Positions 412-32,285 of a stretch of DNA of 32,285 nt are shown piece by piece. Position 1 is the first letter of the stretch. Each line of letters begins with the position of its first letter. The DNA is from Tepidiphilus sp. J10 (GTDB taxonomy: Bacteria > Pseudomonadota > Gammaproteobacteria > Burkholderiales > Thiobacillaceae). The stretch covers positions 1 through 32,285 of the forward strand of contig CAMDHJ010000024.1 in NCBI GenBank assembly GCA_945897865.1, read 5' to 3'. Below the pieces are notes generated by a model. The model saw nothing but the letters and a program-made list of their open reading frames with translations. It had not been told where the DNA came from and made no database searches. The translations under genes and the position numbers were made by a program.

Positions 412-1116
412 TCAGATCGGATGCGTCAGCCGCCTGCGCTCACGTTCCATGTCACGCAGGCCCTGGAAGCTGACGGGGATGCGGGTTTCCATTTTCTGAC
501 GCAGGGCGAGCAGTAATTCGGCGGTGGCGACGGCATCGGCCAGGGCGCTGTGGCGGGCATAGTTGCCGATGCCGAAGTGCGTCATCCAGTGATCCAGCGA
601 GCGGCAGCGGCGTGCCAGTTCGGGGAATAGCGCGGGGGCGACGTAGGCGAGATCAGCCCAGGGGTGTTTCAGCTTGAAGCCGAGGTATTCGCGGATCGCG
701 CGGCCGATCATGGTCTGGTCGAATTCGACATGGAAGGCAATCAGCGGATCGCGTCCGAGGAATTCCAGAAAAGTCAGCAGGGCGTCGATCGGCGGTACGC
801 CTTCCGATTGGGCGGTGCCGCCGATGCCGTGGATCAGGATGTTTTGCTTGTCGCTGACCCTTTGTTGCAGCAGGACGATTTCCAGGCTGTCGCGAAGCGC
901 GATTTTGCCGTTGACCACGGCGACCGCGCCGATGGCGATCAGGCGATCCTTGTTGACATTGAGGCCGCTGGTTTCAACATCGACCACGACATAGCGGCTG
1001 GCGTCGATCGGCGACCTGAGTTCGACCTCGGGCAAGGCTTGCCAGCGCGCCAACTTTTGCGCCTGGGCGTCGCTGAGTTCAGGTTTGGCGCCAAAAATCC
1101 ATTTGAGCAGTTGCAT
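412..1116 (-). CDS. 3'-5' exonuclease, DEDDh / DnaQ epsilon-like
   Basis: VVVDVETSGLN (ExoI), AFHVEFD (ExoII), HSALADAVATAELL (ExoIII) motifs in the 234-aa translation. Confidence 0.85.
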   Translation of the reverse strand: MQLLKWIFGAKPELSDAQAQKLARWQALPEVELRSPIDASRYVVVDVETSGLNVNKDRLIAIGAVAVVNGKIALRDSLEIVLLQQRVSDKQNILIHGIGGTAQSEGVPPIDALLTFLEFLGRDPLIAFHVEFDQTMIGRAIREYLGFKLKHPWADLAYVAPALFPELARRCRSLDHWMTHFGIGNYARHSALADAVATAELLLALRQKMETRIPVSFQGLRDMERERRRLTHPI

Positions 1117-1118
1117 GC

Positions 1119-3032
1119 TCAGACCTGGTAATCCAGCGCCAGCTTGGTTTGCAGCTTGCGTGCCTGGCGGAAGGCTTCGCGCAGGATGCGGCTATCGAGC
1201 GCGTTCAGCGTATCCGGATCGACCTTGTTGGTGAGTTTCTCGCCGGCTTGGCATTGCGAGTGATGCAGCCGCAACCTGAGCAATTGGATGTAAAGGAAGG
1301 CATCGCAATAGGCGTCGATATCCTGTGTTGGCATACGCAGCTTCTCGCCGAAATCACGCAGGCGTTGCAGCGTGTTGGTGGCGCTGACGCTGTGCGCCAG
1401 GCTGAAGATACGCGCCGCATCGACAAACGGGGTGATGCCGTTCATCTTCAGGTCGATCATGCCGTCGCTGGTGACAAAGTCGCGCACGATGCCGAGCGGC
1501 GGCTTGTTGCGCAGGGCATTGACAGCCAGTTGGTGCAGGAAACGGGTGTTCTTGGCTGCGGTTTCAGCCAGCCATGCGCGCAATTCCTCGGCCATGCGAG
1601 CGGCGCCGAACATCGGCCGGAAGTCGAAGAAAATGGTGGAGTGCAGCAGGTCCATCGGCGCGCCGTGGTAAATCCATTTGTCGAAGGTGTTTTTCCACTC
1701 CGACAGTGACAAACACCACTTCGGGTTGGACGCCATGACTTCACCGCCGCACAGCGGGAAACCGCATTCGGCCAGGGCCAGGTTGATGCGTTTCGCGAAC
1801 GGCAGCATGACGGCGCGGATCGCCTCGGCATCGTGTCCTTCCGGTACGCTGAACAGAATGCCATTGTCCTGGTCGGTATTCAGCGTCTGTTCCAGGCGGC
1901 CTTCCGAGCCCAGCGCCAGCCAGCAGAATTCGACCGCGCGCGCGGCAGCATCCACCTCCAGTTCCATTTCAATGATGCGGGTGGTCAGCAGGTCGTTCAG
2001 CGTCGAGATGATCTGGGTCAGCTGTTCCGCCGTGATGCCCTGCGCCAGCATGTTGTGCGCTAACTGGCGGATGTCTTCGGCGGCATGTTTCAGCGTGTCG
2101 AGATCGGCGGCTTTGCGGATGATGCCGCTCAACTGGCGCAGGCCGACGCGTTGCAGCGTGAACAAATCCTTTTCCGACAGCAGGCCGATCAGCTTGCCTT
2201 GCTCCTCCACCAGAATATGGCGGAAACCGTGCCTGGCCATGACCAGCGCCGCTTCATAGGCGAGCGCGTGCGGCGGCAGGGTGATCGGGTCTGGGCTCAT
2301 CACCGCCGAGAAGGGTGTGTTCAGATCCAGATTCGGCAACGTGACCCGGCTCAACACATCATGCAGCGTGAAGATGCCGAGCGGCCGTTGTTGCGGGTCT
2401 ACCGCCACCATCGAACCGATGCCCAGGCTGTTCATGGTTTCCAGCACCTGCCGCATCGGCGTTTCCGGCGTGCAGCTGACGGGCGCGCGCCGCACGATGG
2501 CGGAAAGCGGGCTGGTCATGGATTGCTGTTCGGATGACGATTTGGTGTATTGCGCCTGAATCACCTGCTTCGATTGCTCAAGCAGATTGGCCAGGCGACG
2601 CGTGCAGAAATCGTGGAAGTGGGCGCTTCTATGCAGTAATTGGTGAAAATCGCTGGTCGCGAGTTCGTAACAGAAGGTGTCGATGCCAGCCTTGTAGGTG
2701 CTGTTCACCGGCCGTTTTGAAAGCAGGGCGCCGAGTGGAAAGCATTCGCCTTCATGCAATTCCAGCCAGGCGGCGTCGTCCTGCGCACGCACCACATCCT
2801 GTTCGCCGTGAATTTCGCCCTGTTTGATGATGAAAAAAGTCGCCACTTCACCACTATCCGGCGATAGCACGGTCTCGCCCTTGTTGTAGTAACCCAGTTT
2901 CAGGCGCTCGGCCATCCAGGCCAGATGCTCGCGATCCATGTTGTCGAACGGTGCAAATCGTGACAGATGATCAACGGTGGCGAGAATCAGTGAGTTGGGG
3001 ACGGCATGCGGAGCGGAGTTGGTGATCGACAT
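1119..3032 (-). CDS. cNMP-binding/CBS-domain putative nucleotidyltransferase (DUF294)
   Basis: N-terminal cyclic-nucleotide-binding-like region, two CBS repeats, nucleotidyltransferase motif WLALGSEGRLEQTLNTDQDNG. Start trimmed to MSITNS; the ORF extends to 3104. Confidence 0.85.
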   Translation of the reverse strand: MSITNSAPHAVPNSLILATVDHLSRFAPFDNMDREHLAWMAERLKLGYYNKGETVLSPDSGEVATFFIIKQGEIHGEQDVVRAQDDAAWLELHEGECFPLGALLSKRPVNSTYKAGIDTFCYELATSDFHQLLHRSAHFHDFCTRRLANLLEQSKQVIQAQYTKSSSEQQSMTSPLSAIVRRAPVSCTPETPMRQVLETMNSLGIGSMVAVDPQQRPLGIFTLHDVLSRVTLPNLDLNTPFSAVMSPDPITLPPHALAYEAALVMARHGFRHILVEEQGKLIGLLSEKDLFTLQRVGLRQLSGIIRKAADLDTLKHAAEDIRQLAHNMLAQGITAEQLTQIISTLNDLLTTRIIEMELEVDAAARAVEFCWLALGSEGRLEQTLNTDQDNGILFSVPEGHDAEAIRAVMLPFAKRINLALAECGFPLCGGEVMASNPKWCLSLSEWKNTFDKWIYHGAPMDLLHSTIFFDFRPMFGAARMAEELRAWLAETAAKNTRFLHQLAVNALRNKPPLGIVRDFVTSDGMIDLKMNGITPFVDAARIFSLAHSVSATNTLQRLRDFGEKLRMPTQDIDAYCDAFLYIQLLRLRLHHSQCQAGEKLTNKVDPDTLNALDSRILREAFRQARKLQTKLALDYQV

Positions 3033-3212
3033 GGCAGAGAGGCGATGGTCAAAACAACAGCTTATTGGAAACCCGACGCGGCTGAAACCAAGAAGCGACT
3101 GCAAACCAGGATATTCCCGCGCTTGGGCTGCGCTTTTTCATTTCAGGCAGGCGGCAAGTTAAACTCGGCGCTTTGATTTTCCCCATCACCCCGCTCCGGG
3201 AAGGGCTTCGTC

Positions 3213-3659
3213 ATGAATCTACCTAAGTTGCTTCGCCTGCTGCCGCTGGCGCTGGTTTTGCCGCTGGCCGGGTGTTTGCAGGATACGGCGTCCTATCAGT
3301 TTCCCGAGAAGGATCACGCCATTTCTCTGGTGCGCAACCAGCCCTGGTTCTGGCTTGATACGGTGGCGTTGGAAGTGATCGCAATCCGTTTGCCGGACTG
3401 CCATGACGGCATCCGTGTCGAAGGTGTGCCGCGTAACGGTGCTCTGCCGCTCTACCAGGCGCCGGATGACTATCCGGAGCCGATTTTCATTCTGCGTACC
3501 GGCAAACGTTATTTCGCGATCAGCACCGAGTCGTGTCGGGTGCAGAAATTCGAAACTGCACCGGCTGATCTGGGGGAAATGATGGGGCAATTCAAGGAAA
3601 AAAATGGCAAGTTCCAGTTTGTTGCTGGTGCCCAAGAGCAGTCAGCCCAAAGCCAATAA
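3213..3659 (+). CDS. Putative lipoprotein
   Basis: Signal peptide with lipobox LAGC; 148 aa; SD-like GGGAAGGG upstream. Confidence 0.7.
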   Translation: MNLPKLLRLLPLALVLPLAGCLQDTASYQFPEKDHAISLVRNQPWFWLDTVALEVIAIRLPDCHDGIRVEGVPRNGALPLYQAPDDYPEPIFILRTGKRYFAISTESCRVQKFETAPADLGEMMGQFKEKNGKFQFVAGAQEQSAQSQ

Positions 3660-3709
3660 GCAATAAGCAATAAGCAATAGCCAAATATCAAAAAAAAGGA
3701 ACAAGTCTC

Positions 3710-5191
3710 ATGCGGTACGCTGATCTGCGCGACTTCATCACCCAACTTGAGGCGCGCGGCGAACTCAAGCGCATTCGTGCGGTGGTGGACCCGAATCTGG
3801 AAATGACTGAAATAGGCGACCGCGTGCTGCGTGCCGGCGGTCCGGCGCTGTTGTTCGAGAAGCCGAAAGGACATTCGATTCCTGTACTGGCCAACCTGTT
3901 CGGTACCGTCAAGCGTGTTGCCCTCGGCATGGGTGAGGAAGACCCGGCGCGATTGCGTGAGATCGGCAAGCTGCTGGCCTTTCTGAAGGAACCCGAGCCG
4001 CCGCGTGGCCTGAAGGATGCCTGGGACAAATGGCCGGTGTTGAAGCAAGTGCTCAACATGTCGCCTTCGGTGGTGCGTTCGCCGGCGTGTCAGGACATCG
4101 TCTGGGAAGGCAAGGATGTCGATCTGTCGCGCTTGCCGATTCAGACTTGCTGGCCGGGTGATATCGGCCCGTTGTTGACCTGGGGGCTGGTGGTAACGCA
4201 AGGACCGCAAGGTTTGCCGACCTCGAAACCACGCCAAAACCTGGGCATCTACCGGCAACAAGTGATTGGACCCAACAAGCTGATCATGCGCTGGTTGGCG
4301 CATCGCGGCGGCGCGCTTGATCTGCGCGATTTCCAACTCGCCTTTCCCGGACAGCCGTTCCCGGTGGCTGTCGCCATCGGTGCCGACCCGGCAACGATAC
4401 TGGGCGCAGTCACGCCGGTGCCGGATTCGTTATCGGAATACCAGTTTGCCGGCTTGTTGCGCGGCGCCAAGACGGAAGTGGCCAAAACGCTGGGTTCCAG
4501 TCTGCAGGTGCCGGCCAAGGCCGAAATCGTGCTGGAAGGTGTGATTCATCCCGGCGAGACCGCGCTGGAAGGGCCGTTTGGCGATCACACCGGCTATTAC
4601 AACGAGCAGGACCATTTCCCGGTGTTCACCGTTGAGCGCATCACGATGCGGCGCGATCCGATTTATCACTCGACTTACACCGGCAAGCCACCGGATGAAC
4701 CTGCGATTCTTGGCGTGGCGTTGAACGAGGTCTTTGTGCCGCTGCTGCAAAAGCAGTTTCCCGAGATCACCGACTTCTATCTGCCGCCGGAAGGTTGCAG
4801 CTACCGCATGGCAGTGGTCAGCATGAAGAAGCAATATCCCGGCCACGCCAAGCGCGTGATGTTCGGCGTCTGGAGTTTTCTGCGCCAGTTCATGTACACC
4901 AAGTTCATTCTGGTGACCGACGATGACGTGAATGTGCGCGACTGGAACGAGGTGATGTGGGCTTTGACCACGCGCGTTGACCCCGCGCGCGACACCTTGC
5001 TGGTGGAAAATACACCGATCGATTACCTCGATTTCGCCAGCCCCGTCTCCGGCCTGGGCAGCAAGATGGGAATCGATGCGACCAACAAATGGCCGGGTGA
5101 AACGACGCGCGAATGGGGCACGCCGATTGTCATGAGTGAAGACATCAAGCGGCGCATTGACGCGATCTGGCCAGAACTCGGATTAGGCTGA
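3710..5191 (+). CDS. ubiD: UbiD family decarboxylase (4-hydroxy-3-polyprenylbenzoate decarboxylase)
   Basis: 493 aa with typical UbiD sequence ([34 protein letters not shown]). Confidence 0.93.
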
Positions 5192-22958: not shown

Positions 22959-22993
22959 AATCCCTGCAGCCGAACGGCTGCAGGGATTTTTTA
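22959..22993 (+). terminator. Rho-independent terminator after ahpF
   Basis: AATCCCTGCAGCCGAACGGCTGCAGGGATTTTTTAT. Confidence 0.88.
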
Positions 22994-23055
22994 TCCTAAA
23001 TCCGGCAGTTGACTGTGTTGTAGGAGCGTCCGCTTGCGGCGCGAGCGTTGAGGCG
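22993..23055. repeat. Truncated copy 2 of the GTAGGAGCG repeat
   Basis: ATCCTAAATCCGGCAGTT...GTAGGAGCGTCCGCTTGCGGCGCGAGCGTTGAGG as in 77-135. Confidence 0.8.
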
Positions 23056-23063
23056 AGTTGTGC

Positions 23064-27431: not shown

Positions 27432-27466
27432 TTTGGTCAAGAAACCGTGGTCTGTCCCCTGTTGTT
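27432..27466. repeat. 35-bp direct repeat, copy 1
   Basis: TTTGGTCAAGAAACCGTGGTCTGTCCCCTGTTGTT; 34/35 identical to 28897-28931. Confidence 0.9.
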
Positions 27467-27535
27467 CTGCTTGGCCAGCACCGGGCTGACCAGGGTGATG
27501 CGCAGGGGCGGGGTGAGCAGGGTTTTGCGGTGCAT
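27467..27535 (-). pseudogene. N-terminal fragment resembling a TIGR04348/SenB-type glycosyltransferase
   Basis: MHRKTLLTPPLRITLVSPVLAKQNN with SD AAGGA; ends at the 35-bp repeat. Confidence 0.4.
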
Positions 27536-27553
27536 GGTGGGTTCCTTTTCTTG

Positions 27554-28723
27554 TCAGTTGCTGCCAATCGCTGCATGAATATCTCGCCATCCGTAAATTT
27601 TGATGCCGCTGCGTTCGTAAGTTTCGTCGCCACCGTAGATCAGCCAAGGCGTCAGGGCTTCGTCTTCGGCCATGCGGGTGGCGCGTTGTCCGGCACGGAC
27701 CGTGTCGCTGGTGATGGTTTGCCCGGACTTGATTTCGACCATTTGCAGATGTTCGCCCTGCTCGAAAATCAGGTCTGCTTCGAGGCCGTTGTTGTCGCGC
27801 CAGAAGTAGAGATCAGCAGGCTGGCCCCGGTTGTAACGTGCCTTGATGAATTCGCCAACGACCCAGTTTTCAAACAGCGCGCCTCGCAGTGGGTGCAGGG
27901 TGAGTACGTCTTCGCTGCGGATGCCGAGCAGCCAGCAGGCGAGGCCGGTGTCGAGAAAGTACAGTTTCGGCATTTTCACCAGGCGCTTGCCGAAGTTGCG
28001 GTGGTAAGGCGGCAGGAGGTGGATGAGGTCACTCGATTCGAGCACAGCGAGCCAGCTTTTGGCAGTGTTGGCGGTGATGCCGGCTTCGCTGGCCAGCGCA
28101 GAGACGTTAAGCAGTTGCCCGGTTCGCCCGGCGCAGAGACGCAGGAAGCGCTGGAAGGTCGGCAGGCTCTGGATATTGAGGACTTGCCGGACATCACGCT
28201 CGACATAGGTGGCAATGTAGCTGGCGAACCAGTCGGCAGATTCGACTGGCTGGGTGTACAAGGCCGGGTAGCCCCCTTTGAGCATGAGGCCATCCAGCGA
28301 CAGCGTGCGCGCCGTAACGGCGGGAATTTCGGTGGCGGCAAGCGGCAGCAGGCGCGTCATGCCGACCCGGCCGGCGAGGGATTGGGTGACACCTGCCAGC
28401 AGGCCAAATTGCTGCGAGCCAGTGAGAATGAAGCGGCCGGGCCGGCGGTCGGCATCCACCATGCCTTGCAGGTGCGAGAACAGATCGGGCCAGCGCTGGG
28501 CTTCGTCGAAGACAGCGCCCTGGCTGAAGCGCGCCAGAAAGCCGCGCGGGTCCTCAAAGGCAAAGGCGCGTTCAATGGGGTCTTCCAGGCTGACGTAAGG
28601 CTTGTCGGCAAACAGGGCGCGGGCCAGCGTTGTCTTGCCTGACTGGCGTGGACCAGTCATCGCCAGCACAGGAAAGCTGGCCGCCAAGCGGTGCAGTGTC
28701 AGAGTAATCGAGCGGGTTAGCAT
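27554..28723 (-). CDS. AAA+ ATPase with DUF4143 C-terminal domain (COG1373-like)
   Basis: Walker A GPRQSGKTTLA, Walker B GAVFDEAQRWPDLF, C-terminal FENWVVGEFIKARYNRG...LYFWRDNNGLEADLIFEQG. Confidence 0.92.
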   Translation of the reverse strand: MLTRSITLTLHRLAASFPVLAMTGPRQSGKTTLARALFADKPYVSLEDPIERAFAFEDPRGFLARFSQGAVFDEAQRWPDLFSHLQGMVDADRRPGRFILTGSQQFGLLAGVTQSLAGRVGMTRLLPLAATEIPAVTARTLSLDGLMLKGGYPALYTQPVESADWFASYIATYVERDVRQVLNIQSLPTFQRFLRLCAGRTGQLLNVSALASEAGITANTAKSWLAVLESSDLIHLLPPYHRNFGKRLVKMPKLYFLDTGLACWLLGIRSEDVLTLHPLRGALFENWVVGEFIKARYNRGQPADLYFWRDNNGLEADLIFEQGEHLQMVEIKSGQTITSDTVRAGQRATRMAEDEALTPWLIYGGDETYERSGIKIYGWRDIHAAIGSN

Positions 28724-28761
28724 TTATACAATTAGATCCATTGATTGATCGAATTGTATAA
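28724..28761. promoter_or_regulatory. Inverted repeat/operator at the ATPase start codon
   Basis: TTATACAATTAGATC-N8-GATCGAATTGTATAA (14/15), directly abutting the start codon. Confidence 0.6.
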
Positions 28762-28896
28762 TTTTGCGCTCGGTGTGACTACCCGCCATTTAGGCAGCGC
28801 GAGCGGGTATTTCGAAAACACACAGCACCGTGTGAATGAATAAGACGCTGTAGAAAAATCCCATTCCACACCGACCAAGCCCCCCCAGCCGAATTT

Positions 28897-28931
28897 TTTG
28901 GTCAAGAAACCGTGGTCTGTCCCCTATTGTT
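28897..28931. repeat. 35-bp direct repeat, copy 2
   Basis: TTTGGTCAAGAAACCGTGGTCTGTCCCCTATTGTT. Confidence 0.9.
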
Positions 28932-29009
28932 TCATTGTTCCCACCCGCCGAATCCCACTGCCAGCGATTTGATGTCGGTGGCGCTTAGGGCGAATTTCTT
29001 TGTGCTCAT
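28932..29009 (-). pseudogene. N-terminal fragment of a cassette ORF, possibly DUF2185-like
   Basis: MSTKKFALSATDIKSLAVGFGGWEQ* starting 10 nt after attC2; truncated exactly at the 35-bp repeat. Confidence 0.55.
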
Positions 29010-29018
29010 GTTCTAGAG

Positions 29019-29087
29019 GCCCAACGTGGAGGTCACCGGCGCTGCGCCGCTTTATCGCGCAGCGTCCGGTGGACCGAAAGGTTAGAA
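29019..29087 (-). other. attC recombination site (attC2)
   Basis: Minus strand: TTCTAAC...CCGGaCGCTGCGCgataaagcgGCGCAGCGCCGG...GTTGGGC. Confidence 0.8.
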
Positions 29088-29096
29088 ATCGGATTA

Positions 29097-29678
29097 CTAA
29101 GGATTGGCATCGGCAATACCACCAGCCTCCAGAAGGAGGTATGCAGACGGAAATGCAAATACCTCTGGAGGCAACGAACTGGAAAGCTGCTGTCTCGGCA
29201 CTTTGCGGCTGAGCCTCGCCACTCTTCGGCGTAACGATTTCCACCAAACTTCGGTGCTTGGTGCTGATGCATTGCCGATCACTTTGTAGTGATTCCCTAT
29301 CCATTCAAAGGAAGAGAAGCCGCAGCAACTGCCGTGATCTCTTCCGGTTGTGCGGAGATTCAGCCAAAAGACGCCAGGATGCCCTGCGCCAAAGTAGGGC
29401 GTGTTGGGGTTAGCCCCCGTTCGCTCTTCCGTCCAGCCCAACCAAGGGTCTTGCACCTGCTGAATTGGGTTGCCATGTGCAGCGGGCAGCAGCGGTAAGG
29501 GGCCGCTGGGCACATGCCAGAGGCCGACCCGCTCGGTGCATTTAGCACTAATGGTCCTAACTGCGCGCCACCGCCGAGGACCGTCCGGTACAAGAAACGC
29601 AATTTCTGGATCTTGCGTAAGCAGGTCAAATAGCACTGAAGCGTCGGACTCTGTGAGGTACAAGGGTAGCCAAGGCAT
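29097..29678 (-). CDS. Integron cassette-borne hypothetical protein (193 aa)
   Basis: Long ORF lying between two attC sites, ~10 nt from each; start and stop fit cassette architecture. Confidence 0.8.
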   Translation of the reverse strand: MPWLPLYLTESDASVLFDLLTQDPEIAFLVPDGPRRWRAVRTISAKCTERVGLWHVPSGPLPLLPAAHGNPIQQVQDPWLGWTEERTGANPNTPYFGAGHPGVFWLNLRTTGRDHGSCCGFSSFEWIGNHYKVIGNASAPSTEVWWKSLRRRVARLSRKVPRQQLSSSLPPEVFAFPSAYLLLEAGGIADANP

Positions 29679-29688
29679 CGCAGCAGAT

Positions 29689-29760
29689 TTCTAACGTAAA
29701 GCTAAGGGGCAAGTCAAATGCGAAGCATTTGGCTTGTCCCTTTTGAGCGCCAAGTTAGAT
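29689..29760 (-). other. attC recombination site (attC1)
   Basis: Minus strand: ATCTAAC...AAGGGACAAGCCAAATGC-TTC-GCATTTGACTTGCCCCTT...GTTAGAA. Confidence 0.8.
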
Positions 29761-29769
29761 TGTAATTCG

Positions 29770-30030
29770 TTATTTGCATGTCGCAATATGGCCGCATTTC
29801 TGACATTTGTATTCGCCCTTTTTTGTGTATCCGATCATGTGATACAAGCCAAACGCCACAAAACCACCAACAAGCAAGAAAAATTGAATGCCTTTACTTG
29901 TAAATAAAAACACACTCAAAATCCCAATTACAAATAGACTCACGACGGTGACGCCAATCAGGTCGATGTAATCAATCTTTGGTTTCTCTGCTGGCTCTAC
30001 TGGTGCGCCACAGTTAAGGCAATGATGCAT
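29770..30030 (-). CDS. Cassette-borne small membrane protein with N- and C-terminal zinc-ribbon-like Cys pairs
   Basis: MHHCLNCGAPVEP... two TM segments ...YKCQKCGHIATCK; stop 10 nt before attC1; GTTAGAT core 8 nt before the ATG. Confidence 0.75.
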   Translation of the reverse strand: MHHCLNCGAPVEPAEKPKIDYIDLIGVTVVSLFVIGILSVFLFTSKGIQFFLLVGGFVAFGLYHMIGYTKKGEYKCQKCGHIATCK

Positions 30031-30734
30031 AGATAAAATCTAACGTAATGTCGATCGAAATAATTCGATGTATGTAGACGCAATCCCCCGCCTAAACACC
30101 GCACATCCCTTTGTTTCCATGGTCTTTCCTCCCTCTTCACCATGCGTATTCAAAAGTAAAACACGTCACCCGTGCGTTACCGCCTGTGTTCTGGCGCCGC
30201 CTTCAGATTTGCCTCTAGTGTAAGCAATCCACCCCATTGTTTGCACGGGTAAATCTTGTCCGTCGTCGGGGGCTGTTCGGCATGATTTTTGGTGTCTGCC
30301 GCACCCGGAGTTTTCTCTTCAAATAAGAATGGCTATCATCAATGCCGTCTTCCGTACTTCTGCCGCTTCGCACTGAACCGGCTTCGGAACGACCTCAGCA
30401 GTGTCAGCCAGCCAACGTGTTTTCGATTTTCCGTTGGAGTGGCACAACTTGAATTCCATGTTTAACCCTGCCTGGACGCTGGCCGTCTTCCGATGAGCGC
30501 GGCGTATGGGCACGGTGGCAATTGGCGCGCACTGGGCGGGGTGGCCGCTTTGTGAGTACGGTCACCACCCGTGATGGTTTTGTCTGCCTGTTTGGTCACG
30601 TAGCGTGATGTGAAGAAGGGATCTCCCTCGGTGAACTTGAACAAACGAACCCTCCGGGGGAGTCTCTGGTTGCCAAGCCAAGAGACCCGCTCAAGGGTGC
30701 CATGCCCTCCTGCAAGACCCCAGTATTTTCCGCT

Positions 30735-31040
30735 TACTGCAGCGCGCCGACGAGGAACTGGCGAGCGAGGCCCGTTCATGTGGTTGCACTTGCGTCGGTG
30801 CGCTCCACCGCGCCAACTATCCGAGGAAGCCACGCGCCTGTCTGAGCGAAGTACGCGCTGCCTTCGAGGTGCGCTTCAGCTTCTGCTGCAACCGATGTCG
30901 TCGGCGGACCACCTCGATGTCGGTGCGCTTTCTCGGCCGACGCGTCTACCTGTCCCTGGCGGTGGTGCTGGCCTCTGCCCGGCTTGCCGGGCAGAGGCCA
31001 ACGGCGGCAAGGCTGGCCGACGAGCTGAACATTCCCGCGC
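30735..31040 (+). pseudogene. Fragment of zinc-ribbon/HTH transposon-associated protein
   Basis: Continuous frame LLQRADEELASEARSCGCTCVGALHRANYPRKPRACLSEVRAAFEVRFSFCCNRCRRRTTSMSVRFLGRRVYLSLAVVLASAR...LADELNIPA, then unrelated tail. Confidence 0.5.
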
Positions 31041-31172: not shown

Positions 31173-31433
31173 ATGTCACAACCCACCACCATGACTGTTC
31201 GCTTGAACCCCACGCTCAGTGAGTTTGTGGCCGCCAACGTGCAGCAAGACGGCGCCTACGAGAACGTCAGCGAGTACGTGCGCGACCTGATCCGGCGCGA
31301 CATGGAGCGCAAGGAGCAGCAGGCGTTTGATCGGCTGAAGGCGGAGCTGGCTCAAGCGTTTGCTGCGCCCGAGTCGGCCTATCGCCCTTTGACCGCAGCG
31401 GATGTGATCGCCCGCAATGCTGCAGGCGCCTGA
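31173..31433 (+). CDS. ParD/CopG-type antitoxin
   Basis: MTVRLNPTLSEFVAANVQQDGAYENVSEYVRDLIRRDMERKEQQAFDRLKAEL; upstream of ParE-type toxin gene. Confidence 0.88.
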   Translation: MSQPTTMTVRLNPTLSEFVAANVQQDGAYENVSEYVRDLIRRDMERKEQQAFDRLKAELAQAFAAPESAYRPLTAADVIARNAAGA

Positions 31434-31436
31434 CCG

Positions 31437-31763
31437 ATGCCCGCTGTACGTGTTCAGGAGGCTGCGTCCTGGCGTCTGGACGAGATCTACCGCTACACGC
31501 GTGAACGCTGGGGCGAGGCGCAAGCCAACCACTACATCACCGGGCTGTTCGAAGCGTTTGAGCGTATCGAGACGCATGGGGTGTCGTCCAGTCCGGTGCC
31601 TGCTGAGTTCGGTGTTGATGGCTTCTACTTCCGCTATGAGCGGCACTTCGTGTATTGGCGGCGCTTGTCGAACGGTGACATCGGCATCGTGACCATTCTT
31701 CACGAGCGCATGCATCAGATTGGGCGCTTTCGTGAGGATTTTTTCGGCAAGCCGTCGGCCTAG
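31437..31763 (+). CDS. ParE/RelE-superfamily toxin
   Basis: RLDEIYRYTRERWGEAQANHYITGLFEAFERI...FYFRYERHFVYWRRLSNGDIGIVTILHERMHQIGRF. Confidence 0.88.
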   Translation: MPAVRVQEAASWRLDEIYRYTRERWGEAQANHYITGLFEAFERIETHGVSSSPVPAEFGVDGFYFRYERHFVYWRRLSNGDIGIVTILHERMHQIGRFREDFFGKPSA

Positions 31764-31870
31764 CACCAGGTAGACATCCACGAATCCAGCGGCACCAAGC
31801 GACTCGACATGGCAGCTCGCGGTGCCGTGCTGCAGTGGCGCTTTGTTCCCGCTCTACAAGGCGATAAACA
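31764..31870 (+). pseudogene. C-terminal remnant of a TonB-family protein
   Basis: Frame HQVDIHESSGTKRLDMAARGAVLQWRFVPALQGDK directly after parE stop; truncated at the 31871 repeat. Confidence 0.6.
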
Positions 31871-32058
31871 TAAATCCGGCTGTTGTCCGCGTTGTAGGAG
31901 CGTCCGCTTGTTGGCGCGAGCGTTGAAGGATCGGCCCGCAAGCGGAGCCTCCTACACCTTTTTTCACCTCACCCGACATGTGAATAGAGAAATCGCCCTC
32001 TCGCCCGTATCCAGGCGGCTTCACGGAGAAATCTCTGCGCTCAACTGGGGTTTCCAGG
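31871..32058. repeat. Copy 3 of the ~187-bp GTAGGAGCG palindromic repeat
   Basis: High identity to 81-267 across the full length. Confidence 0.85.
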
Positions 32059-32059
32059 T

Positions 32060-32152
32060 GTGCGCCGGTAAAGACCGGCAAGGAGTAGATGGTGAAAGTC
32101 CATTGCAATGAAGGATTAGCGACCCACATTGGCCCCGAGTGTCACTGCCGGA
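32060..32152 (+). mobile_element. Probable 5' end fragment of a group II intron
   Basis: Starts GTGCGCCGG..CCGG with GUGYG-type boundary, then GGTGAAAGTCCATT; interrupts identity with repeat copy 1. Confidence 0.45.
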
Positions 32153-32285
32153 TGTAATTTGATACAGCATGCCGATTGAAAACTGATACACCGAACGAGG
32201 ACGATCAGGGCTTTTTCGGAGCCTTGATGATCAGTGACGAGGTGTATGTGGAAATCAAAGTTTTGAGAAAGCAGGGACTGAGCCT
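32153..32285 (+). mobile_element. Left end of an IS21-family element including the start of istA
   Basis: TGT-start terminus with reiterated TTGATACA/CTGATACA; ORF from 32227 MISDEVYVEIKVLRKQGLS typical of IstA, running off the window. Confidence 0.7.

Follow-up and report, generated by a model that had tools for sequence, protein, structure and literature searches.

We begin with the question that this locus raises: how does an array of integron cassettes come to stand in a chromosome with no integrase gene beside it? Clusters of attC sites that lack an integron-integrase, called CALINs in the terms of IntegronFinder, are common, and the origins considered for them are the decay of complete integrons, insertion at attG sites and rearrangement. 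The array considered here lies in a 32,285-nucleotide stretch of Tepidiphilus sp. J10 (contig CAMDHJ010000024.1; the window, below, is the whole of this stretch). Judging from sequence comparison, it opens with a conserved attI site. We consider it likely that this integrase-less, attI-headed array goes back to an orphan attI that was copied or moved, together with its leader but without intI, within a betaproteobacterial group.

Organization of the array

The elements of the array are all on the minus strand. The attI site (30038-30073) carries a 31-nt conserved sequence and the core GTTAGAT (30044-30038), with the crossover after G30044. It is followed by cassette 1 (349 bp, 29695-30043), which is bounded by the attI and attC1 crossovers and has an open reading frame for an 86-aa protein (29770-30030) ahead of attC1 (29689-29761). 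Cassette 2 (670 bp, 29025-29694) is bounded by the attC1 and attC2 crossovers, and its open reading frame for a 193-aa protein (29097-29678) precedes attC2 (29019-29088). The crossover Gs are those at 30044 (attI), 29695 (attC1) and 29025 (attC2). Just the start of a third cassette is present (28932-29024), with a truncated open reading frame of 25 aa (29009-28932) that has no match among plasmids. The cores, genes and spacings that a first-pass annotation had placed on the minus strand agree with the sequence and its open reading frames.

The truncated cassette gives way to a repeat that begins at 28931. This is one member of a pair of 35-bp direct repeats (27432-27466 and 28897-28931, 97% identical) that flank an AAA/DUF4143 gene (27554-28723, minus strand), which matches the PADLOC candidate defence family PDC-S01 with E = 4e-105. 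Because the right repeat adjoins the truncated cassette, the repeat-flanked unit (27432-28931) may have cut it off.

The attI site and its copies in related genomes

The same annotation labeled the locus a CALIN, which is correct by definition for a cassette cluster lacking an adjacent integrase, but it missed the conserved attI at the head of the array and listed the outer GTTAGAT simply as a core. The comparison with related genomes, all of them drafts or metagenome assemblies, identifies this core as that of an attI rather than an attC. When window positions 30040-30560 are searched against 117 genomes of the family, related sequence is found in four other genomes. The motif ATACATCNNNTTNNTNNNNTCGACATTACGTT is exact at six loci (the window, G011 C17, G018 C73, G018 C106, G032 C52 and G032 C80) in four genomes of the genus, the host included, and its reversed control gives zero matches even when three mismatches are allowed. 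A seventh copy, G018 C170, carries a 2-bp insertion. In G038, a member of a different genus of the same family, a close version of the motif (TACATCGAATTTTTTATATCGACATTAACGTTAG) directly adjoins an intact intI, and the orphan attIs are closer to this cis attI than to the attIs of the IntIs in their own genomes.

The six exact copies have a mean identity of 85% over the 31 nt up to the core G. Past GTT, the identity is 33% over four positions and 23% (equal to background) over the next 29 nt. Since the similarity breaks at G|TT, different cassettes appear to have been inserted at one attI, as an integrase crossover predicts, and we read this break in homology as indirect evidence for IntI-catalysed recombination at the orphan attI. 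Recognised attCs lie downstream of the site in the window (two), G032 C52 (four), G032 C80 (two), G011 C17 (one) and G018 C170 (two), while models of the local attC types recognise none at G018 C73 or G018 C106. More than one intI-less copy is present in G032 (C52 and C80) and in G018 (C73, C106 and C170).

How far does the site extend beyond these genomes? In a scan of 85,462 species for the exact pattern ATACATCNNNTTNNTNNNNTCGACATTACGTT, which overlooks divergent attI copies, matches are confined to this group (Hydrogenophilales bacterium 28-61-23, Betaproteobacteria bacterium DeMMO4_3, Tepidiphilus sp. J10 and Gallionellaceae bacterium STA_24). The orphan attI is absent from the viral contigs and plasmids scanned. 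A dyad ahead of the core was tried as a universal mark of attI and rejected, as it is found at most intI-linked sites but not at all of them, with a background of about 4%.

The integrase

The absence of an integrase open reading frame from the window, noted at first pass, is borne out. The 2.2 kb upstream of the window attI, at the end of which the contig stops, have no similarity to IntI; the intI-linked attIs of this group sit within a few hundred bp of intI. Compared with a complete integron, then, the window has the attI at the head of the array and lacks the intI adjacent to it.

A search of the host genome for intI, proposed at the same time, does find the gene elsewhere, but in broken form only, as one transposon-split gene and one short fragment. 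The split gene, on contig C113, scores 411 bits to TIGR02249. It is interrupted after ...QELLGH by a transposon that encodes an rve/IS481-like transposase as well as an AAA ATPase, and the segment with what we take, from knowledge of the family, to be the catalytic tyrosine (SDVSTTMIYTHVL) is displaced by 3.4 kb. On contig C105, a 65-residue fragment of intI is followed by its own attI and attCs. Because both recognised host copies are broken, the array in the window is probably static at present; the host genome is 86% complete, so that a further intI may be missing from the assembly. Decay of intI is also seen in G018 (fragments) and G032 (a copy with stops). In G011 the IntI is intact and shares 80% identity with the G038 enzyme; the orphan attI is on a different contig, and the cis attI of this IntI differs from the orphan one.

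The transposon inside the C113 intI (550-3982 of locus L017) encodes the rve transposase, an AAA_22 ATPase and a small HTH/Cys-rich protein. In the window, a remnant of such a transposon occupies 30553-31036 (484 bp, 90.5% identical to L017:3982-3499), and its start coincides with the border of the C113 insertion. Transposons of this type possibly prefer integron regions.

Dispersal of the attI copies

The orphan copies fall into two leader subfamilies, G1 and D. The G1-type leader of the window (30074-30248, minus strand) is common to three other intI-less attI loci, G018 C73, G018 C170 and G032 C52, and about 170-210 bp upstream of attI are shared within the subfamily. The window leader is about 70-73% identical to those of G018 C73 and C170, and is also similar to that of G032 C52 over a shorter stretch. 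The genes that flank the other G1 copies have no similarity to the flanks of the window at a tblastx threshold of E = 1e-10. The D type is found at G018 C106 and G011 C17, which have 115 bp in common with G032 C80. At none of the seven loci is there significant similarity to IntI within 2.5 kb upstream of the orphan copy.

The D type offers a view of how such a segment may change place. In G018, the D site of C106 follows an intact gene that we recognise as a decarboxylase gene. In G011 and on host contig C40, just a 3' fragment of this gene is found, fused into a gene within the interval between what we take to be scpA and dnaE. In eight relatives this interval measures 29-709 bp; it reaches 4.0 kb in G011, and the host has about 6 kb here. 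Given the decarboxylase fragment and the enlarged interval in G011 and the host relative to the eight others, the most likely course is that the intI-less D segment entered scpA-dnaE and brought foreign flanking sequence with it. The host copy has since lost its attI and retains one weak attC (19.2 bits). No common mobile element is recognised at the borders of the orphan attIs.

The neighborhood of the window attI contains several further elements. A ParD/ParE toxin-antitoxin pair (31173-31763, plus strand) lies about 1.1 kb upstream of attI, and in G018 C170 an apparent ParDE-like pair of a different subfamily lies about 1 kb upstream of the orphan attI. The contig ends in a piece of group II intron (32050-32285; Rfam D1D4-6, under the gathering score). 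Its part 32050-32139 corresponds to C113:149-60, and 32140-32285 is identical to the start of C40; the contigs therefore break at this repeat. Dispersed repeats are found at 81-267, 22992-23060 and 31861-32058 of the window and also on host contigs C105 and C40 (83-89% identity).

Explanations for the array

In the explanation that we favor, an orphan attI and its upstream leader would form a unit that has reached several positions in the chromosome, by copying or by relocation, without carrying intI along. An integron integrase whose gene lies elsewhere, or was once present, would act on the orphan copy, and attI x attC recombination at G|TT would have inserted two cassettes and a third one, now truncated. 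We infer both the action of IntI in trans and the way in which the copies spread. A more tentative extension is that of a split integron, in which one IntI serves several dispersed platforms of leader and attI, and the platforms move and outlive the integrase; this may be so, but we would not count on it. If true, cassettes would be captured and expressed at multiple chromosomal sites.

Alternatively, each orphan attI may be the stump of a complete integron that stood in place until its intI was deleted, the attI never having been dispersed. The decay of intI that is so common here (the split and the fragment in the host, the G018 fragments, the stops in G032) fits this reading, as does a box in the D-type leader that is also seen near intI-linked attIs. 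We nevertheless think it rather unlikely, for a detectable remnant of intI is missing from all seven loci, the four G1 copies have the same non-intI sequence upstream in dissimilar surroundings, and the D type appears to have brought a fragment of a foreign gene along into scpA-dnaE.

Could the cassettes have been inserted by IntI at a chance chromosomal site, an attG, that merely holds a GTT core? Such insertions have been documented (Loot et al. 2024, cited in PMC12901181) and likewise place cassettes outside the main integron, and the lack of an adjacent intI would agree with them. An attG, however, is a non-attI target with the minimal core alone, while the target in the window extends beyond that core and resembles a conserved attI, with 31 nt conserved at further loci and next to the G038 intI. 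This origin is therefore very improbable.

The attC sites and the cassette proteins

We come now to the hairpins downstream of the attI. Nine attC sites from host contigs C113 and C105, with no sequence of the window among them, were aligned, and two models were built from them: R1, which uses sequence only, and R2, a covariance model that includes structure. Both models cover local attC types only, so that missing matches in other taxa carry no weight. With R1, attC2 scores 26.5 bits (E = 3.2e-7) and attC1 19.9 bits (E = 3.7e-5); with R2, attC1 scores 44.4 bits (E = 6e-10) and attC2 42.3 bits (E = 2e-9), these E-values being rough because the calibration was short. No further convincing attC is found in the 32-kb window by either model, the next match having E = 0.37. 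The covariance-model check suggested at first pass, run here with models of our own, thus recovers both claimed sites and nothing else convincing.

The bottom strands of attC1 and attC2 both fold into hairpins. The two sequences had been called unrelated, but the host genome contains relatives of each: one attC of host contig C113 shows 91% identity with attC2 across 46 nt, and another has an exact 17-nt block in common with attC1. A strict R-box scan overlooked both sites because the outermost core bases deviate from the consensus, and a relaxed scan recovered attC1. An Rfam search of the window returned no attC, just the group II intron fragment and a chance match. That the hairpins are chance inverted repeats or terminators, with no integron present, is a reading for which one may cite the variability of attC sequences and the mere nine sites behind the models, but two matches at the expected spacing with no other convincing one in 32 kb, together with the identity of attC2 to a C113 attC, make it hardly worth entertaining.

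Neither cassette protein has an obvious function, as database and genome searches bear out. Searches of Pfam, NCBIfam, PADLOC, PDB, plasmids and some 500 related genomes return nothing for the 193-aa protein, and its AlphaFold prediction without an alignment is unusable (pLDDT 35). The 86-aa protein had been described as having zinc-ribbon-like Cys pairs; it does have CxxC pairs around two hydrophobic segments, but zinc-ribbon models score below cut-off. Its single relative in the order is distant (32% identity, in G493), and no attC is recognised beside the gene of this relative.

The leader and its open reading frame

We turn our attention to the sequence ahead of the first cassette. The leader contains a short open reading frame, METKGCAVFRRGIASTYIELFRSTLR* (30040-30120, minus strand; 81 nt, 26 codons), preceded by a Shine-Dalgarno-like GGAGGAAA. 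Its stop codon overlaps the attI core, 9 nt ahead of the ATG of the first cassette. The same layout is found at G018 C73 and at some, but not all, intI-linked attIs; as several intI-linked sites are without such an open reading frame, we reject it as a universal feature. At 17 of 24 sites (71%), the frame that ends at the core stays open for at least 18 codons, and the other frames do so at 33% and 54% of them. Translation of the first cassette may be coupled to this open reading frame.

A sigma-70 scan of the leader gives no consensus promoter-like match above chance. As regards the Pc promoter of a complete integron, the window therefore has a conserved leader, yet no consensus promoter above chance. 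A structured RNA in the G1 leader was considered and rejected, since the fold is weak and has no compensatory pairs. The leader of the orphan attI probably helps to express the first cassette.

At five intI-linked loci (L036, L038, L041, L042 and L044), short open reading frames overlap the attI and extend into the GTT core; the peptides that they encode, ...RRQMSAILR* for example, are reminiscent of ORF11 of class 1 integrons. ORF11 has a translational role. It is part of the attI1 site (PMC9410878). The window resembles attI1 in having a short open reading frame that overlaps attI just ahead of the first cassette, and differs in that its sequence is unrelated, no intI is present and the open reading frame is not universal in the group.

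Comparison with known integrase-less arrays

As in a CALIN, two attCs with their cassettes are present and no intI is seen in the window, which reaches 2.2 kb upstream of the attI. The array differs in that it opens with a conserved attI, copies of which head other arrays in related genomes. Recurrent orphan attIs with different cassettes would offer a further route to CALINs, one that is concrete and can be tested on sequence, and they could explain CALINs at recurrent chromosomal positions. In Xanthomonas, CALINs occupy recurrent loci away from ilvD/intI (PMC12444791), and in both systems cassettes cluster at positions that recur and are separate from intI; the portion of that article available to us reports no attI at these loci, whereas here one is demonstrated by comparison. 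Surveys of CALINs, this suggests, should check for a conserved attI ahead of the first cassette.

Another parallel is that of the Shewanella prophage M16-3, where a CALIN is headed by an attI like that of the complete integron of the same element (PMC9892861). We found no report in the open-access literature of a genome with several orphan attI copies scattered over it. An attI-headed CALIN has been reported once already, and what looks new is the presence of several dispersed intI-less attI sites per chromosome: in the Shewanella case a single CALIN accompanies a complete integron within a single prophage, while the present one, in which no phage context is recognised, comprises several chromosomal copies in several species.
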